From the NCBI RefSeq assembly GCF_011038975.1, contig NZ_JAAKEC010000003.1, positions 124,001 through 188,000 of the forward strand: a stretch of 64,000 nt of DNA, in the 5' to 3' direction. A model generated the notes under the pieces. It searched no databases, was not told the origin of the DNA, and saw only the letters and a list, made by a program, of their open reading frames with translations. Shown piece after piece: positions 7,229-60,682 of the stretch. The translations under genes and the position numbers were made by a program. The stretch comes from Adlercreutzia sp. ZJ176 (GTDB lineage: Bacteria; Actinomycetota; Coriobacteriia; Coriobacteriales; Eggerthellaceae). The stretch's first letter is position 1. The number at the start of each line of letters is the position of its first letter.

Positions 7229-8214
7229 GGGAGCTCCTCCCCTTCCGCGCGCGCCGACACGCCCGCGCCCGCGCGCTCATCTTCCTCAGCTGGTCGCGCC
7301 GCAGGTGCCGCGCCTGCGCGCGCGTCCTCTGCGCGCTCTGCTTCCACCGCGCGCTCCGCTTCCGCCGCATGCCTCTCCGCTTCCGCCGCATGCCTCTCCG
7401 CTTCCGCTTCCACGCGCTCCGCTTCCGCATCTGCGCGCTCCGCGTCCTCTGCGTCCGCCTTGCGCCGGTCCTCCTGACGGAACTCCGCCACGAATCCCGC
7501 CGAGAAGATGCCCGCCGGTATCGCCACCACCGCAATGGAGAGCGCCATGGTGGCGAACCCGATGAGCCTTCCCGCCGGCGTGATGGGAACCAGATCGCCG
7601 TAGCCCGTCGAAGTCACCGTCGTCATCGCCCAGTACAGCCCCGTGAGCACGCTGTCGAACTGGTCAGGCTGCACCGCGTGCTCGGCCTCGTACATGAGCA
7701 CGCTCGCCGCGATGCACAGAAGCGCCAGGACCATGAGCGACGCCACGATCTCCTGCCGGTGCTTGACCAGCACGCGCGAGAGCGACTTCAGCCCGCGCAT
7801 GTAGCGCGTGACCTTGATGAGGCGCACGAGGCGGATCACGCGCACCGCGTCCGTCAGCGCCACCGACTCGGGGGCGAGAAACGCGAAGAGCGCCGGGAGA
7901 AACGCCAGCACGTCGACGATCCCCATGACCGAAAAGATGTAGCGCAGCCGCGCCCGCACCGGCGTGCACTCGGGATGATCCTTGTCAGCCACCCACACGC
8001 GGCAGAGGTACTCAACCGCGAACACGCCGGTGGAGCAAAGGCTGACGATGCTCACGGCTCCCGTCGCAAGCGGAGAGAGGACCTGGCCCGTCGTGCCCAC
8101 CAGAAGCGCGTTCGCCACGATGAGCGTCACCAGGGCGAAGCTCAGGGCGCGCCCTGCGGCGCTCGCCTCCTCGGGGCGCTCGAGCGCCAGATAGATCCAC
8201 TGCTTCGCCGTCAT
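7225..8214 (-). CDS. Voltage-gated-type potassium channel with charged C-terminal tail
   Basis: A 329-residue ion channel of the six-helix type. An S4-like segment with regularly spaced arginines (RVIRLVRLIKVTRYMR) precedes the pore, whose selectivity filter reads TVTSTGYGDLVP, the K+ channel signature TxGYGD. The C terminus from about residue 245 is an Ala/Glu/Arg-rich stretch of heptad-like repeats (RHAAEAE twice in tandem), likely a helical coiled tail. The ATG at 8214 has GGAGGTG seven bases upstream; the frame stays open further upstream, but this start best fits the family. First gene of a two-gene unit with the ClC gene, suggesting coordinated K+ and Cl- conductance. Confidence 0.87.
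   Translation of the reverse strand: MTAKQWIYLALERPEEASAAGRALSFALVTLIVANALLVGTTGQVLSPLATGAVSIVSLCSTGVFAVEYLCRVWVADKDHPECTPVRARLRYIFSVMGIVDVLAFLPALFAFLAPESVALTDAVRVIRLVRLIKVTRYMRGLKSLSRVLVKHRQEIVASLMVLALLCIAASVLMYEAEHAVQPDQFDSVLTGLYWAMTTVTSTGYGDLVPITPAGRLIGFATMALSIAVVAIPAGIFSAGFVAEFRQEDRRKADAEDAERADAEAERVEAEAERHAAEAERHAAEAERAVEAERAEDARAGAAPAARPAEEDERAGAGVSARAEGEELP
7359..7400 (-). repeat. 21-bp tandem duplication in the K+ channel tail
   Basis: Two identical 21-base units (7359-7379, 7380-7400) encode the heptad RHAAEAE twice. This is an in-frame duplication, typical of slippage in an alanine/glutamate helix. Confidence 0.85.
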
Positions 8215-8446
8215 GGGCACCTCCTTCGCCCTCCCTTGTCTCGCCCGGCCGCGCCGAGGCACGCCGGGCTCTCCGACCCCTCCGGGTGCGCCGGGCCGCG
8301 TCCGCCAGGCCCGCTCCACCGAGCCCGCCCGGCCGGGCCAGGCCCGCCGGACCGCGCAAACCCCTGCATTTCGTCACAACCTCTTATGGTAAAGCAAAAG
8401 GCGCGCGAGGGCACGCACGTTCGCGCATCACCGCGCCGCTTCGCAC

Positions 8447-8452
8447 TATAAT
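8447..8452 (+). promoter_or_regulatory. -10 box TATAAT before the DUF2130 gene
   Basis: A perfect TATAAT stands out from the surrounding GC-rich DNA, 38 bases before the start codon. No convincing -35 box was found at normal spacing. Confidence 0.45.
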
Positions 8453-8490
8453 AGGCAGATCGAGACAACGAGAGCGACAGGACGTGACCC

Positions 8491-10101
8491 ATGAGCGAGA
8501 TCAAGTGCCCCCACTGCGGGAAGACCTTCGTCGTCGACGAGAGCGGCTACGCCGAGCTTCTGCGCCAGGTGCGCAGCGAGGAGTTCGCCCGCGAGATCGC
8601 CGCGCAGAGAAAGCAGGTCGAAGCAGCCGCGAAGGCGCGCGAGGAAGCCGCCGCCGCGCGCGCCCAGGCGGAGCTCGCCGAGGCCGTCACTGCGAAGGAC
8701 GCCGAGATCGCCAAGCTCGCCTCGCAGCTCGACTCCCAGCGCGAGGCCGCGCGCGCCCAGGTCGAGCTCGCCGCGCGCGAGGCCGCCGACGCGCAGGCCC
8801 GCGCGCTGCAGGAGGCCGAGCGCGAGCGGGACGCGCTCAAGGCGCAGCTCGAAGCGCAGGCCGCGCGCGCCGAAGCCGAGACGAAGCTCGCCCTGCAGCA
8901 AGCCGAGCACGAGATCGGCGCGCTCAAGGCCCAGCTCGCCTCCCAGGCCGATCGCGCCGAGGCCGCAGCCGAGCTCGCCCTGCAGAAGGAGCGCGCCCGC
9001 GCCGCCGAAGAGGCCCGCGCCGCCGAGCGGAAGCGCGACGAGCAGGCCCGCGCCGCCGAGCGCGCCTGGGATCAGCAGTCCCGCGCCGCCGAGCGCGCCA
9101 TCGCCGAGCTCAAGTCGCAGCTCGACCTCGCCAAGCTCGACCAGGAGCGCGTCGCGGCGCAGCACCAGACCGAGCTCGCCACGCGGGAGGCCCTCATGCA
9201 GGAGCAGATCGACGCGCGCGACCGCGAGATCGACAACATCAAGCACATGCGCGCCGAACTGTCGGTGAAGATGATCGGCGAGAGCCTCGAGCAGTTCTGC
9301 GAGAACGAGTTCAACAAGCTGCGCGCCACCGCCTTCAGGACCGCCTACTTCCAGAAGGACAACGACGCGAAGGACGGATCGAAGGGCGACTACATCTACC
9401 GCGAGCGCGACGAGGACGGCAACGAGGTCGTCTCCATCATGTTCGAGATGAAGAACGAGGCCGACGACTCCACGCACAAGAAGCGCAACGAGGACCACTT
9501 CGCCAAGCTCCATCGCGACCGCACCGCCAAGGGCTGCGAGTACGCCGTGCTCGTGTCGCTGCTCGAGCGCGACAGCGACCTGTACAACACCGGCATCGTC
9601 GACGTGTCGTACTCGTCGGGCTTCGAGAAGATGTACGTGATCCGCCCGCAGTTCTTCATCCCGCTCATCACGCTCATCCGCAACGCCGCGCTGCGCTCGC
9701 TCGACTACCGCCGCGAGCTCGCCGAGGTGCGCCAGCAGAACGTCGACGTCACCTACTTCGAGGACCAGCTCGAGGACTTCAAGGGCAAGTTCGAACGCAA
9801 CTGCACGCTCGCGCGCACCAAGTTCCAAGCCGCCGTCAAGGACATCGACGCCACCATCAAGAAGCTCGAGAAGATCCGCGACGAGCTCACGAGCTCGGAC
9901 AACAACCTGCGCCTGGCCAACAACAAGCTCTCCGACATCACCGTGAAGCGCCTGACGCGCAAGAACCCCACGATGAAGGAGAAGTTCGCCGAGGCGCGCG
10001 CGGCGAAGGAGTCCGGCGAAGTGCCCCCCTACGCCCCCGAAAAGGAGTGGGAGGAAGTCGTGGAGGCCGAGCTCATCGAAGTGGAGGACGCCGAAGGATA
10101 G
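8491..10101 (+). CDS. DUF2130 protein: zinc ribbon, long coiled coil, PD-(D/E)XK-like C-terminal domain
   Basis: A 536-residue protein. It begins with a zinc-ribbon half-motif, CPHCGKTF (residues 6-13). Residues about 20-265 are an uninterrupted Ala/Glu/Arg/Gln coiled coil. The C-terminal part matches the DUF2130 family, with the sequence order GDYIYRERDEDGNEV...IMFEMKNE...YAVLVSLLE. A D...ExK arrangement (GDY, then FEMKNE) fits the proposal that the family belongs to the PD-(D/E)XK nuclease-like fold, as does the overall resemblance to RmuC-type DNA maintenance proteins; function is not established. It stands alone on the plus strand and is followed by a low-GC accessory island. The ATG at 8491 has only a weak ribosome site. 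Confidence 0.8.
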   Translation: MSEIKCPHCGKTFVVDESGYAELLRQVRSEEFAREIAAQRKQVEAAAKAREEAAAARAQAELAEAVTAKDAEIAKLASQLDSQREAARAQVELAAREAADAQARALQEAERERDALKAQLEAQAARAEAETKLALQQAEHEIGALKAQLASQADRAEAAAELALQKERARAAEEARAAERKRDEQARAAERAWDQQSRAAERAIAELKSQLDLAKLDQERVAAQHQTELATREALMQEQIDARDREIDNIKHMRAELSVKMIGESLEQFCENEFNKLRATAFRTAYFQKDNDAKDGSKGDYIYRERDEDGNEVVSIMFEMKNEADDSTHKKRNEDHFAKLHRDRTAKGCEYAVLVSLLERDSDLYNTGIVDVSYSSGFEKMYVIRPQFFIPLITLIRNAALRSLDYRRELAEVRQQNVDVTYFEDQLEDFKGKFERNCTLARTKFQAAVKDIDATIKKLEKIRDELTSSDNNLRLANNKLSDITVKRLTRKNPTMKEKFAEARAAKESGEVPPYAPEKEWEEVVEAELIEVEDAEG

Positions 10102-10172
10102 CAAAGGGTAGCGGCGCCCGCCCAGAGCAGACGGCGCTTGAAGAAGCTTGGGGCAGCAAAGTAACCTACAAT

Positions 10173-10360
10173 TACAAGCGGTCAGATCAGCCCACCTGGC
10201 TTTGCTTCATCGAGCTGCCGAGGCAACGGGGACATGCTTGCTAAGCGTGGTGCTTTTGGTTGACCCTCGCCTCGCACGCGTCAGATCAACTTTTCATCGC
10301 CTGTCACCAAAGTCTGCGCCCCCTAACGTTGCGCCAAGTATGGAAAGTTAGGGCTGACTA
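10173..10360 (+). ncRNA. Candidate structured RNA upstream of the Abi_2 gene
   Basis: The gap 10102-10433 (332 bases) has no convincing ORF but clear secondary structure. A TACAAT box at 10167-10172 could start a transcript near 10180. CGAGGC (10219-10224) pairs with GCCTCG (10269-10274), enclosing the hairpin CATGCTT-GCT-AAGCGTG (10233-10249). A second stem pairs CCCTAACGTT (10321-10330) with AAAGTTAGGG (10344-10353), with one mismatch. The nonamer GTCAGATCA occurs at 10181 and 10280, bracketing the first structure. AbiF-type members of the Abi_2 family are known to carry a conserved ncRNA next to the gene, acting as an antitoxin, which is why the region is flagged. The limits and strand are inferred; no covariance was tested. 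Confidence 0.3.
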
Positions 10361-10433
10361 TGATATGCAGTAAGCGGAGGCTTTAAGTACCAGGCATCGA
10401 AGATTCGTTGACATTCGAGAGGATGATGGTAGG

Positions 10434-11519
10434 ATGAGCAATGACAGAGCCGGGGGTATCCGCCATAGCGCGCGTATAAAGCCCCCGGCCGTTTCGTTTT
10501 CTGAGATGTTCGAGCCAAAGACGAGCGAGCCTTCTCCGCTCCGCATCGCAGACCTCGGATCCATGGCGAAGCGTCGCGGCTTCTCCGACGGAGAAGCTCC
10601 TCAGAGTACCGCAATTCTGAATCGCATCGGGTACCAACATGCGAGCAGCTATTTCGACCTCTTCAAAAAACCCGATGGGACGGTAGAAAACGACGCCTCC
10701 ATGAAGGAGCTTAACCGCGTTATCCTGTTTGACAGGAAATACCAGGCTTTGCTATTCGAGCATATAGGCTTGTTTGAGCTGCAATTCAGGGCGCAGTATG
10801 CCTACCACATGTCAGAGAAGAGAGGGGCCTTCGCCCATCGCAATCCAAAGAACTTCAAGGATAGGGATCACTTCAACGAATTCCTCAAAAGATACGGCAG
10901 TGAGTACAACAGGCAAATCAGAAACCACAATCCCGATATCACGAAGGCGAACGAAAAATACGGGGACGCCCCCACTTGGCTCGCCGTTGAGATAATGTCC
11001 TTCGGAACGCTATCGATGCTTTACAACAACACCAAGAGCAAAGACGTGAGGAAGGGCGTCGCCATGTCCTTCGGATGCACTGCAGAAGAATTGTCGAGCT
11101 GGGCAAGGTGTCTGTCAGGAGCGCGAAACACGTGCGCACATTTCGGAAGGCTCTGTGGGACGCAGCTGACGTCGAAGCCAAGGACAATCAGCGGGACGAA
11201 GGGATGGGACAATGGGAGCCCGTTCTATGTCGCCCTGATCCTGCTTTACGTATTCAGAACATGCGATTTCTTCGACGATGACGCCACGCTGTCCTACAAC
11301 CTCTCGATGATGTGCGACCTGCTGCAGCTGTTCAACGACTTCGACGACGTCTTGACTCGATGCGGCGTACCACGGAACTGGCTCAGCATGATGATAGACA
11401 AGCGCGTCACTGGACTGGACATCGCCTTGGCGAACGACTTCGCGCAGAACAGGGGAAAGCCAGGCAGAACGTGGCTGACCGTCAAAAGGGAGGACGGAAC
11501 GGTGTCGAGACTTGCTTAA
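10434..11519 (+). CDS. Abi_2 (AbiD/AbiF-like) abortive-infection protein with HEPN-type motifs
   Basis: A 361-residue member of the Abi_2 family of abortive-infection proteins, which stop phage spread by damaging the infected host. The conserved core GARNTCAHFGRL carries R231-X4-H236, the RX4-6H signature of HEPN ribonucleases; a second candidate, R119-X5-H125 (RAQYAYH), precedes it, so a pair of RNase motifs is possible. Other family features are the N-terminal LGSMAKRRGF...LNRIGYQHASSYFDLF and the ELQFRAQYAYH segment. Base composition is distinctly less GC-rich than the flanks, indicating transfer. A small ORF follows 109 bases later, then a terminator. The ATG at 10434 sits after GGATGATGGTAGG. 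RNA target and trigger are unknown. Confidence 0.75.
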   Translation: MSNDRAGGIRHSARIKPPAVSFSEMFEPKTSEPSPLRIADLGSMAKRRGFSDGEAPQSTAILNRIGYQHASSYFDLFKKPDGTVENDASMKELNRVILFDRKYQALLFEHIGLFELQFRAQYAYHMSEKRGAFAHRNPKNFKDRDHFNEFLKRYGSEYNRQIRNHNPDITKANEKYGDAPTWLAVEIMSFGTLSMLYNNTKSKDVRKGVAMSFGCTAEELSSWARCLSGARNTCAHFGRLCGTQLTSKPRTISGTKGWDNGSPFYVALILLYVFRTCDFFDDDATLSYNLSMMCDLLQLFNDFDDVLTRCGVPRNWLSMMIDKRVTGLDIALANDFAQNRGKPGRTWLTVKREDGTVSRLA

Positions 11520-11628
11520 TGCAGCAAGCCCTGCGCATGTGGGCTGACGTCCAGTCGTGGCTATCAGACTCGCCAAAAGCCTAGCCAAGCTTGCAATGAC
11601 CACGCTCAGGAAGATCGGAGGCTTCGCA

Positions 11629-11859
11629 GTGCAAAACGAGGTCACGGAGACCAACAAGCTCAGAATATCCTGCGTCATACCGATCCGGCGCTACCGCCCC
11701 AAAACGCCCGAGGAGCGACTCGAGCGCCTGCTAGACGAAGCCGAGCGTGACATCTGCGCAGGGAGCGTATCGGACGCCCGTGCCGGCCTTGCAGCGATAA
11801 GGGACCGCAACGGGTTGCGCAGCCCGCCTGCGCGCCTCGGGCGCCGCCGGCCTGCGTGA
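11629..11859 (+). CDS. Small hypothetical protein downstream of the Abi_2 gene
   Basis: A 76-residue ORF, starting at GTG 11629 behind GGAGG seven bases upstream; the same frame is open from GTG 11557, giving 100 residues but with no ribosome site. The middle (RPKTPEERLERLLDEAERDI) is a strongly predicted charged helix followed by SDARAGLAAIRDRNG, a plausible second helix; the last 15 residues are Arg/Pro-rich and encoded by the terminator stem. No family was recognised. Being co-directional with the Abi gene and in front of a shared terminator, it could be an antitoxin or accessory protein, but nothing in the sequence proves this. Confidence 0.45.
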   Translation: MQNEVTETNKLRISCVIPIRRYRPKTPEERLERLLDEAERDICAGSVSDARAGLAAIRDRNGLRSPPARLGRRRPA

Positions 11860-11872
11860 GCGGCGCCTTTTT
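11840..11872 (+). terminator. Rho-independent terminator closing the Abi island
   Basis: GGCGCCGC (11840-11847) pairs perfectly with GCGGCGCC (11860-11867), followed by TTTTTG. The stop codon of the small ORF lies inside the loop, so gene end and terminator overlap. Confidence 0.85.
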
Positions 11873-11916
11873 GTTTCTGGTTTATTAAAAGATCGTCACG
11901 CGGGAAAGCGCGACCA

Positions 11917-13349
<1,433 letters not shown>

Positions 13350-13405
13350 GGCCCCGCCTTCCACGTCGCATGCGCCGCGCGGGTGCCCCCGCCCGCGCGA
13401 CCATG

Positions 13406-13439
13406 AGCCCCCGCCTCGGTCACGAGACGGGGGCTTTTT
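13406..13439 (+). terminator. Rho-independent terminator of gdhA
   Basis: AGCCCCCG-c-CTCG-gtca-CGAG-a-CGGGGGCT followed by TTTTT: a twelve-pair stem with one mismatch and a T-tract. Confidence 0.93.
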
Positions 13440-13497
13440 CGTGCATTCTGCCCCCACCGCGACGCGCCTGCGCCAAGCCTGCGCTAAGCTTCTCGGC

Positions 13498-14361
13498 ATG
13501 AGAAAAACCACTCGGAGAAAACCTGCGCGAAAGCCCGCACGAAGACCCGCGCGAAGGCTTGCGCGATCACCGCTTATCATCCTCGTCGCCGCCATCGTCG
13601 CGGCCCTCGCCTGCGCGATGCTCGCCTTGGGCACGTGCGCCGCCGAATCCCCGCGCGCGACCGGTCCCTCCGCGGCCTTCGTCTCCGACAAGATGTACGA
13701 CTGGGCGAACCTGCGCGACGTCGGCGGACGGCTCGTCTACGAGGAGGGCGGGCAGGTCACCTCGCGCGCGGGGATCGACGTCTCCGAGCACCAGGGGTAC
13801 ATCGACTGGGAGGCCGTCGCAGCTGACGGCATCGACTTCGCCATGGTGCGCGCGGGCAGCCGCGGGGCCACGGAGGGCGGGCTCGCCGTCGACGACTACT
13901 TCGCCTACAACCTCGACGGCGCCACGCGGGCGGGGCTTGACGTGGGCGTCTACTTCTTCTCGCAGGCCGCCACCGAGCAGGAGGCCGTCGAAGAGGCCGA
14001 CTTCGTGCTCGAGCTCCTCGGCGGCGCGGCGCTCTCCTACCCCGTCGCCTACGACCACGAGCGCATCGCTGGCATAAGCGGGCGCGCCGACGCGCTCACC
14101 CCCGAGCAGATGACCGCGAACGCGCGCGCCTTCTGCGACCGCATCGCGCAAGCGGGCTACGCCGCGATGATCTACGGGAACGCGGGCGACCTGGCCCGCT
14201 ACCAGCTCGCCGAGCTCGGCGGGTACGGCGTGTGGTTCGCCGAGTACGGCGTGAGCGCGCCGAAGCGCAACCGGGACCTGGCCATCTGGCAGTACAGCAA
14301 CGAGGGCCGCGTGGCAGGCATCGACACCGTCGTCGACCTGGACATCCGCCTCGCCGGCTGA
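13498..14361 (+). CDS. Membrane-anchored GH25 lysozyme-like muramidase
   Basis: A 287-residue cell-wall hydrolase. An Arg/Lys/Pro-rich N terminus (residues 1-22) precedes one hydrophobic helix (about 24-45) that is a signal anchor or uncleaved signal. The catalytic domain of glycoside hydrolase family 25 follows: GIDVSEHQGYIDW, DFAMVRAGSRG, VYFFSQA and the acidic PVAYDHE segment, then YGNAGDLARY and AIWQYSNEGRVAGI, where the family closes its barrel. GH25 enzymes cleave the beta-1,4 bond between MurNAc and GlcNAc. The ATG at 13498 lacks a clear ribosome site; an upstream GTG abuts the gdhA terminator and is less likely. The gene ends 11 bases before the convergent neighbour. Confidence 0.85.
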   Translation: MRKTTRRKPARKPARRPARRLARSPLIILVAAIVAALACAMLALGTCAAESPRATGPSAAFVSDKMYDWANLRDVGGRLVYEEGGQVTSRAGIDVSEHQGYIDWEAVAADGIDFAMVRAGSRGATEGGLAVDDYFAYNLDGATRAGLDVGVYFFSQAATEQEAVEEADFVLELLGGAALSYPVAYDHERIAGISGRADALTPEQMTANARAFCDRIAQAGYAAMIYGNAGDLARYQLAELGGYGVWFAEYGVSAPKRNRDLAIWQYSNEGRVAGIDTVVDLDIRLAG

Positions 14362-18772: not shown

Positions 18773-18794
18773 CATGCGCTCAACCGGTGTCACG

Positions 18795-18888
18795 CTAAGT
18801 CCCTACGCTGGCATTACCCAGATCAGGTTCGCGGGTCGCAGGAGCACCTGCCTCTCAGCCCTTCAATTCGGGCTCCCCGTAGCAAGGG
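18795..18888 (-). promoter_or_regulatory. TPP (THI-box) riboswitch aptamer
   Basis: The minus strand carries the THI-element core: GGGCTGAGAGG, then GAACCTGATCTGGGTAATGC (20 bases shown) and CCAGCGTAGGGA at the 3' end. CTACG near the 5' end pairs with CGTAG at the 3' end to form P1. The element senses thiamine pyrophosphate and sits between a good promoter and a terminator, upstream of the thiamine-binding protein and transporter genes, so it represses uptake when TPP is plentiful. Confidence 0.96.
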
Positions 18889-18890
18889 CC

Positions 18891-59383: not shown

Positions 59384-59545
59384 TTAACTTCTTCTGAACC
59401 GGGCAGAGGATGCCCTTAGGGACTCGACGTTATCGCACGCCAAGCCCCTCTCGTTCACGAGAATCTCGCAAAGCTCGTCAAGTGTCCTGAACGACTTGTC
59501 AGACATTGGAGTTTCTTTCCGCAAATGCAGGAAGGCCCACCGCAT
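59384..59545 (-). CDS. Short hypothetical ORF, possible gene remnant
   Basis: A 53-codon ORF from ATG 59545 (a second ATG at 59506 gives 40 residues). The protein reads MRWAFLHLRKETPMSDKSFR, then TLDELCEILVNERGLACDNV and ends ASSARFRRS. The frame is open for eight or so further codons upstream (PPKPLNDAE) without a start, suggesting the 3' end of a truncated gene. No family was recognised, and the ribosome sites are weak. Confidence 0.35.
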   Translation of the reverse strand: MRWAFLHLRKETPMSDKSFRTLDELCEILVNERGLACDNVESLRASSARFRRS

Positions 59546-59662
59546 TTCAGCATCGTTGAGAGGCTTGGGTGGGCGCTGATGGGTTCATTCTAATTACTCC
59601 AGAAAAGAACGTCCATAGGGATGAAGCGATAAAGCAACCTTTTGCACTGGACCAAGCGTTTG

Positions 59663-59785: not shown

Positions 59786-60682
59786 ATTCTCGGATAACGC
59801 ACACTTATCGGGGTTGGCGGCTATCCACTCTTCGATCGACTTGTAGTCATTGTCCCTTAGACAGGATGAAACGGTCTCGCAGACACCACGGTCGATATCG
59901 TCAACCAACACATCCAACCCATAACCTTGCTCGGCAACTACGCCGCGTACCCACTCTTCGGGGTCATTGACCAATACATCAAGGCCATATCCTTGCTCGG
60001 CAACAGCTACACGGACTCCCCAAAAGGGATCGTTTACCAGAACGTCGAGACCGTAGCCTTGTTGCGCGACGGCGCTGCGAACAACCGCGTTGGAGTCATT
60101 AACAAGTTGGTCCAGCCCGTAACCGTACTCGGCCACTACGGCACGAACCCACCGCTCAGAATCATTAACGAGAACATCAAAGCCATGCCCTTGTCGCGCC
60201 ACAGCTGCTCTTACCGGCCAATCTTGATCTTCAACCAGCTGATTCAGGCCGTAACCTTGTTGAGCAACAGCCTCACGAACAAACACATCGGGATCATGCA
60301 TCAGTTTATCTAAGCCGTAACCTTGCTCGGCTACGGTTTCACGAACCTCCCAATCAGGATCGTTGACGAGCGCATCCAACCCGTAGCCTTGCTCGGCAAC
60401 AGCGACGCGAACATCAACCTCAACGTCGGTTATCAACCTTTCGAGTCCATACCCTTGTTTTGCGACGACCACGCGAACATGCCAGTCCTCATCATCGACA
60501 AGCTGATCGAGTCCATACCCTTGTTCGGCAACGGCAATACGAACATAATCGCTACGATCATTCACGAGCTTTTCCAGTCCATAGCCTTGTTGCGCAGCGT
60601 TGTAACGCTCAAGATAATCCTCGCTGTCAACCATTTCGCGCTGCTCGTCGCTCAAAGCACCATATGGCACAAATTCACTCAT
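59768..60682 (-). CDS. LRV/HEAT-like alpha-solenoid protein with eleven 22-residue repeats
   Basis: A 304-residue protein dominated by eleven tandem 22-residue units of the form A-x-Q-G-Y-G-L-D-x-L-V-N-D-x(4)-V-R-x-A-V (residues about 29-272), resembling leucine-rich-repeat-variant/HEAT solenoids used for protein or nucleic-acid binding. A short N-terminal cap (MSEFVPYGALSDEQREMVDS) precedes them. The DNA units are 66 bp and recently related, so copy number can change by recombination. The last six codons (RFRAR and stop) are encoded by antitoxin-derived DNA, so the original 3' end was lost in a rearrangement. Lower GC than the core genes. Function unknown. Confidence 0.75.
   Translation of the reverse strand: MSEFVPYGALSDEQREMVDSEDYLERYNAAQQGYGLEKLVNDRSDYVRIAVAEQGYGLDQLVDDEDWHVRVVVAKQGYGLERLITDVEVDVRVAVAEQGYGLDALVNDPDWEVRETVAEQGYGLDKLMHDPDVFVREAVAQQGYGLNQLVEDQDWPVRAAVARQGHGFDVLVNDSERWVRAVVAEYGYGLDQLVNDSNAVVRSAVAQQGYGLDVLVNDPFWGVRVAVAEQGYGLDVLVNDPEEWVRGVVAEQGYGLDVLVDDIDRGVCETVSSCLRDNDYKSIEEWIAANPDKCALSENRFRAR

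Follow-up and report, generated by a model that had tools for sequence, protein, structure and literature searches.

A putative abiF-type RNA antitoxin gene nested in frame within an Abi_2 HEPN toxin gene of Coriobacteriia

Introduction

In the AbiF systems described so far the RNA lies outside the toxin gene, and read-through of its terminator sets the level of toxin. An Abi_2 gene of Adlercreutzia sp. ZJ176 raises the question of where its RNA partner could be encoded and how the toxin would then be controlled. The gene is found in a stretch of 64,000 nucleotides (NCBI RefSeq assembly GCF_011038975.1, contig NZ_JAAKEC010000003.1, positions 124,001 to 188,000 of the forward strand), here called the window, and plain coordinates below refer to that stretch. 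An initial annotation made from the sequence of the window had proposed that an actinobacterium has a HEPN toxin of the AbiF type together with an RNA of the abiF family. The core of this idea held, as the protein is a relative of PDB entry 8VZ6 and the locus encodes an abiF-type RNA under a promoter of its own; the position of the RNA, a second HEPN motif, a small ORF and a terminator had to be revised.

Results and Discussion

The module and its flanks

The module is indeed lower in GC than the core genes around it (0.52–0.58 inside, 0.63–0.75 outside), and it holds one Abi_2 ORF. Its features are collected in Table 1. In a sibling genome (G028) the similarity to the window ends at 10102 on the rmuC side and starts at 11823 on the dehydrogenase side, and the toxin is absent there. 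Within the genus, the interval between rmuC and gdhA is variable.

Two further components that had been ascribed to the module were not retained. The small ORF at 11557–11859 has no homologue among the loci, Pfam, PADLOC, NCBIfam or PHROGs and overlaps the native flank, and was therefore rejected as an antitoxin. The terminator near 11840 sits in the flank common to G028. Because that shared flank, which begins at 11823, occurs in a genome lacking the toxin, neither the terminator nor the end of the small ORF is the module's own.

The RNA partner had been expected in the 332-base gap between the rmuC-like gene and the toxin ORF (10102–10433), with a transcript at 10180–10360. Compared to dinucleotide shuffles, four tiles of the gap gave fold z-scores of +0.64, +0.17, +1.04 and -0.63, which is no excess of structure. 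With folding like that of shuffled DNA and no Rfam match, an RNA partner at 10102–10433 was rejected. A hairpin at 10233–10249 in the gap scores as a terminator in the scan, and a similar stem is found after rmuC in G028. The candidate RNA lies instead at 10443–10495, within the toxin ORF.

Table 1. Features of the module and its neighbors in the window
Feature	Position	Strand	Details
Neighboring genes			rmuC-like gene (DUF2130), stop at 10101; glutamate dehydrogenase-like gene on the other side
Promoter of the nested RNA	10408..10435	+	-35 TTGACA 10408-10413, 16-nt spacer, -10 TAGGAT 10430-10435
Nested abiF-type RNA (putative antitoxin)	10443..10495	+	encodes toxin residues 4-21 (DRAGGIRHSARIKPPAVS) in frame
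RNA outer stem	10449-10457/10481-10489
RNA inner stem	10461-10463/10472-10474		extended by 10458-10459/10476-10477
RNA 3' bulge	10478-10480
T-rich stretch (CGTTTCGTTTTC)	10490..10501	+	possible terminator tail; also toxin codons VSFS
Abi_2/AbiF-type HEPN ribonuclease toxin (predicted)	10434..11519	+	361 aa; Pfam PF07751, 124 bits
HEPN catalytic motif R231-N-T-C-A-H236	11124..11141	+	invariance, alignment with PbAbiF

The predicted toxin

The assignment of the ORF to Abi_2 was confirmed by Pfam, and the protein is an AbiF/AbiD homologue. Among all PDB chains, 8VZ6 (the PbAbiF dimer with its ncRNA) is the only relative by sequence, with a phmmer E-value of 7e-19 and a profile E-value of 7e-72. 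An AF2 model made with a 40-sequence alignment has a mean pLDDT of 89.8 and matches 8VZ6 with a Foldseek E-value of 4e-11 and a VIA Z-score of 22.6 for 285 residues, spanning residues 28–327. The pLDDT is 36 for residues 1–10, 52 for residues 11–20 and above 90 from residue 31 on.

The R231-X4-H236 motif (RNTCAH) named in the initial annotation was confirmed, with R231, N232 and H236 invariant across 40 homologues. The R231/H236 pair aligns with R210/H215 of the RNSCCH motif in PbAbiF. Mutation of R210/H215 inactivates PbAbiF, and R202/H207 of C. difficile AbiF are equally required for activity (PMC12373285). The proposed second motif, R119-X5-H125, is absent in the closest relatives, which have RSRYSNE (L006) and RSRYSRD (L037) at this position. 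It was thus rejected, and since it is unconserved the protein has one HEPN motif, not two.

The PADLOC match of the toxin is AbiD. Structural grouping with AbiD-type proteins that lack an RNA partner had been put forward as an argument against an RNA-dependent system. It does not apply here, because AbiD, AbiD1 and AbiF are handled as a single structural group (PMC12373285) and close relatives of the toxin carry the RNA.

A hairpin RNA with its own promoter

The segment 10440–10505, within the 5' end of the ORF, has a fold z-score of about -2.3, which is modest. Nineteen homologous RNAs, aligned without those of the window, L006 and L037, were used for a covariance model (R1). For these 19 RNAs RNAalifold gave a structure of 7+3 pairs with double changes in 9 of the 10. 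R1 matched the window at the position of the nested RNA with 23.3 bits (E 8e-4 in 327 kb), and this was the best match in an unfiltered search of 10000–12000 (E 5e-6); the nearest homologues, L006 and L037, score just 10.6 and 8.3 bits. The Rfam check that had been suggested left RF03085 unmatched in 9900–12100 up to an E-value of 5, and to the same limit Rfam returned nothing at the locus except two irrelevant matches. The window RNA is therefore a homologue by way of R1 and not a member of RF03085. A single-sequence scan of genome contigs found nothing, while the alignment-based scan succeeded.

In the window RNA the outer stem is conserved, together with the 5' ACAG and the AA-containing 3' bulge. 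The usual CCUCUC-GAUG loop is replaced by a derived form that the window shares with L006 and L037; the nested RNAs of L065–L067, L010, L014, L040 and L045 have a loop similar to CCUCUCAACGAUG, which the window RNA lacks. Changes that preserve pairing are seen in L006 (G-C to A-U) and L037 (C-G to G-U). Over the nested loci 99.5% of the RNA pairs are kept in spite of the coding constraint, and the covariation is 0.473 versus 0.155 after shuffling, a value obtained with an alignment fitted to the model and of which much separates two clades, maybe in few events. Judged by sequence, the window encodes a divergent abiF RNA that is served by a promoter of its own and followed by a U-run.

The promoter scores 10 of 12 in a consensus scan, with a start expected near 10442–10444, and in the homologues of related genomes the hairpin is found right at the expected start site. 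At a fixed distance from the RNA start, a -10 box with at least 4 of 6 matches is present in all 24 nested loci. The mean score over these loci is 4.54 of 6 for the -10 box and 4.04 for the -35 box, compared to control values of 2.46 and 2.34. The start codon of the toxin is located at the -10 box or ahead of it, and in the window ATG 10434 overlaps the box, so that a transcript from the RNA promoter has no toxin start codon. A search for a separate upstream toxin promoter yielded none above chance (7.04 versus 6.98 for shuffled sequences). Read-through from rmuC is one possibility for the source of toxin mRNA.

In G028 (L186:772–939) the promoter region and the RNA are retained with 84.5% identity to the window, including the -10 box TAGGAT, while the toxin ATG has become ATA and the toxin body is gone. 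The inner stem of this RNA carries a double change from A-U to G-C that preserves pairing. This fits an RNA gene that may persist alone, with a recent relic as the alternative.

The hairpin could also be a transcription attenuator, a translational control element or an accidental coding structure, with no trans-acting antitoxin being made. Such an explanation, for which the loss of the conserved abiF loop in the window hairpin, its escape from Rfam and the modest folding score can be cited, has to account for an independent promoter with its start site at the conserved 5' end of the RNA in 24 of 24 nested loci, for the sibling that preserves RNA pairing and -10 box with its toxin gone, and for the full abiF signature borne by other nested loci. 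We consider it conceivable but unlikely.

Nesting in frame in two clades

The arrangement was examined in 24 nested loci, divided into groups N1 and N2, and 42 canonical Abi_2 loci. Loci were initially classed as nested by the analyst on the basis of sequence and frame, and since many are related they do not count as independent. In an ML tree N1 (10 rows, support 100/99) and N2 (14 rows, 99/98) form two separate supported groups. Among the closest relatives of the window locus, the RNA lies inside the open toxin frame in L006, L037, L065, L066 and L067, and further in L010, L014, L040 and L045. The peptides that the RNA encodes in these relatives resemble DRAGGTSxRSGNPPAV or, where the RNA has the derived form, DRAGGIRHSARIKPPAV. 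In a second set of 14 loci an RNA of the same topology encodes DSTPHA...ANQAGSF.

Several properties separate the nested from the canonical loci. The length of the RNA is constant modulo 3 in each nested group (50/53 in N1; 52/55/58/61 in N2) and mixed in canonical loci. The distance from the RNA to the toxin domain, located by HMM alignment, is likewise constant modulo 3 in the nested groups and mixed in the 42 canonical loci. The frame is open through the RNA in 24/24 nested versus 15/42 canonical loci. An in-frame start with a Shine-Dalgarno (SD) sequence upstream of the RNA is present in 20/24 nested versus 2/42 canonical loci (Fisher p 5e-11), and the other two frames of the nested loci have 3 and 1 such starts. 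For in-frame SD starts 3–32 nt downstream of the RNA the situation is reversed, with 0/24 nested versus 22/42 canonical loci (Fisher p 5e-6). With a DNA pattern that allows any loop of 3–30 nt, the length is 41, 44 or 47 nt for all 14 genome matches, and all 8 viral matches are of corresponding lengths, with the same residue modulo 3. The codons right after the hairpin have a pN/pS ratio of 0.51 when read in the toxin frame, compared to 0.93 and 1.25 in the other two, so that purifying selection is seen for the toxin frame alone.

In the window, ATG 10434 is the sole in-frame ATG ahead of the RNA, and it has a weak Shine-Dalgarno sequence (GAGG) 11 nt upstream. Seven nested loci, namely six of N2 and that of the window, have an ATG 2–10 nt after the RNA that is usable without SD. 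This brings up the option that the layout is canonical and the start mis-called, in which case an ordinary upstream abiF RNA would be followed by a toxin start at a weak or non-canonical codon (ATG 10506 or 10563 in the window), and the frame would be open by chance in GC-rich DNA. The position of ATG 10506 directly after the hairpin, with another around 10563, the ATG found 2–8 nt past the RNA in the six N2 loci and the failure to detect an upstream toxin promoter agree with this option. So does the fact that GC-rich hairpins seldom hold stop codons, as the 15 canonical loci open by chance illustrate. However, no nested locus has an SD start 3–32 nt downstream, 20 have one upstream in frame, and ten loci (L010, L014, L013, L015, L044, L048, L051, L052, L058, L065) have no ATG, GTG or TTG at all between RNA and domain. 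The constancy of RNA length and frame modulo 3 also speaks against it, as does a conserved AVxFSxxFxPK motif directly after the hairpin, which evolves as codons and in L067 and L006 includes residues ahead of any usable start. We therefore regard a mis-called start as quite improbable, and the nested arrangement as the preferred reading. That the locus is a chance finding or a decaying, functionless relic, as loss of the toxin in G028 and the abi_2 remnant beside an abiF RNA at 59.4–59.6 kb of the same window might hint, is highly improbable in view of the full-length toxin ORF, intact catalytic residues, confident AF2 model, and intact promoter and stem at the window locus.

Locus L013 contains two tandem abiF-type RNAs (1237–1294 and 1351–1405), both in the open toxin frame, which recalls the two abiF motifs of RCd22 from C. 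difficile. Outside the class, a search for nesting in about 300 Actinomycetota genomes gave few matches, of which L230, checked by eye, looked canonical. From these surveys the nested arrangement appears to be found only in two lineages of AbiF/Abi_2 systems, within one bacterial class. No description of a nested abiF RNA was found in the literature searched, which covers the original abiF reports incompletely.

Proposed mechanism

The protein family and fold, the homology of the RNA, its promoter and the in-frame nesting in two clades are computational observations. With good confidence we propose that the locus is a toxin-antitoxin or abortive-infection module, type III-like and related to AbiF-AbiFr, whose RNA antitoxin gene sits in sense orientation and in frame within the first codons of the toxin gene. 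The broader proposal, that in two Coriobacteriia Abi_2 clades the gene of a trans-acting RNA antitoxin evolved to lie in frame in the toxin coding sequence, so that transcription of the antitoxin is uncoupled from production of the toxin and the toxin-binding site is part of the toxin's own mRNA, is held with reasonable confidence.

The strong internal promoter over the toxin start codon would direct synthesis of a short hairpin RNA of the abiF type that stops at the GC stem and U-run. This short RNA could bind the dimer of the HEPN ribonuclease and keep the toxin inactive; in the systems studied, RCd22 and AbiFr occupy the toxin dimer (PMC12373285; PMC12737573). Toxicity, RNA binding and neutralization would be expected by analogy with those AbiF systems. 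A longer transcript from further upstream would be translated through the RNA sequence, giving the toxin a disordered N-terminal tail. Transcripts from the antitoxin promoter begin past the toxin start codon. Full-length toxin therefore cannot come from their read-through and would need a transcript begun further upstream. Each toxin mRNA would then carry one copy of the toxin-binding element near its start. Binding or cutting of this element by the toxin could provide feedback and self-repression. The upstream toxin transcript and the autoregulation are speculative parts of the scheme.

Inability of a nested RNA to work by read-through makes for a clear, testable prediction on toxin regulation. 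The locus would also be a case of strong dual coding, where promoter, RNA fold and protein share the same bases. With this variant the abiF RNA family extends past the Rfam model, which is relevant to searches for Cas13 ancestors and for their guide-like RNAs and accounts for why such RNAs would escape annotation.

Solitary RNAs and other observations

A canonical abiF RNA (RF03085, 41.1 bits) is present at 59536–59572 on the minus strand of the window, about 49 kb from the nested locus. It is followed at about 59506–59384 (minus strand) by a truncated abi_2 start (MSDKSFRTLDELCEILVNERGLACDNVESLRASSARFRRS*), a toxin remnant beside an orphan antitoxin RNA. Directly upstream of the orphan RNA, at 60682–59768 on the minus strand, a 304-aa protein with about ten near-identical repeats (EQGYGLDxLVNDxxxxVR) is encoded.

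For about one third of the abiF-type RNAs that R1 detected in the class, no Abi_2 gene lies closer than about 1.5 kb (for example L085, L088, L101, L104, L106, L109, L110 and others). On three viral contigs an N2 RNA is present (L203:275–321, minus strand; L204:11374–11420, plus strand; L205:2760–2806, minus strand) with no Abi_2 gene in the 8–14 kb examined. These may be phage-borne antidotes or relics, and solitary copies on phage-like contigs raise the question of whether antidotes are carried by phages.

The genome that contains the nested locus has three more Abi_2 genes (G000:C44:169672, G000:C11:205800 and G000:C33:203963), and no abiF RNA was found beside these three. A TPP riboswitch (RF00059, 66.7 bits) is located at 18781–18889 on the minus strand of the window.

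Comparison with known systems

The possible relation to Cas13 can be considered first. PbAbiF-AbiFr has been proposed as a relative of the Cas13 ancestor. Cas13 membership calls for two HEPN R-X4-6-H motifs per chain, and in the toxin only R231/H236 is conserved. After 8VZ6, the next VIA matches are Cas13d (9eca, Z 6.3) and Cas13bt3 (7vtn, Z 5.3), both below the level at which the tool is reliable for helical proteins. A CRISPR array was not found either: there are no array-like direct repeats in 9000–13000, and TRF on 8000–14000 detected none in the module. A Cas13 assignment was rejected; Cas13 is a weak structural neighbor, with Z-scores too low to count by themselves.

In the type II toxin-antitoxin systems MqsRA and Axe-Txe, the antitoxins are proteins from a separate ORF, not RNAs sharing codons with the toxin. 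In these systems too the antitoxins have promoters separate from that of the toxin (PMC6918082, PMC3760812).

The nearest counterparts are AbiF systems. AbiF-RCd22 of C. difficile phi027 likewise combines an Abi_2 HEPN toxin with an RNxxxH motif and an abiF-type hairpin RNA that has a SigA promoter and a terminator and adjoins the toxin gene (PMC12373285). RCd22 differs in that it lies in the 5' UTR, with a transcription start 168 nt before the ATG, and has two abiF motifs, unlike the window locus with its one diverged abiF motif inside the toxin coding sequence. RCd22 and its toxin share one promoter and the toxin arises by read-through from it, whereas the promoter of the window RNA overlaps the toxin start codon (PMC12373285).

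PbAbiF-AbiFr (8VZ6) has the same fold and the same catalytic R/H positions as the toxin at 19–23% identity, but no part of 8VZ6 aligns with residues 1–27 of the toxin, some of which are encoded by the RNA gene. The window RNA shares with the abiF RNA of RF03085 an outer stem, an inner stem and an asymmetric 3' bulge with AA. The 5' ACAG is a conserved feature of the local RNA family, and the kinship with RF03085 is by way of the covariance model. A further difference lies in the gene arrangement: in described AbiF systems the RNA is upstream of the toxin coding sequence, a position that need not define the group, whereas in the clade of the window it is nested in frame within it.
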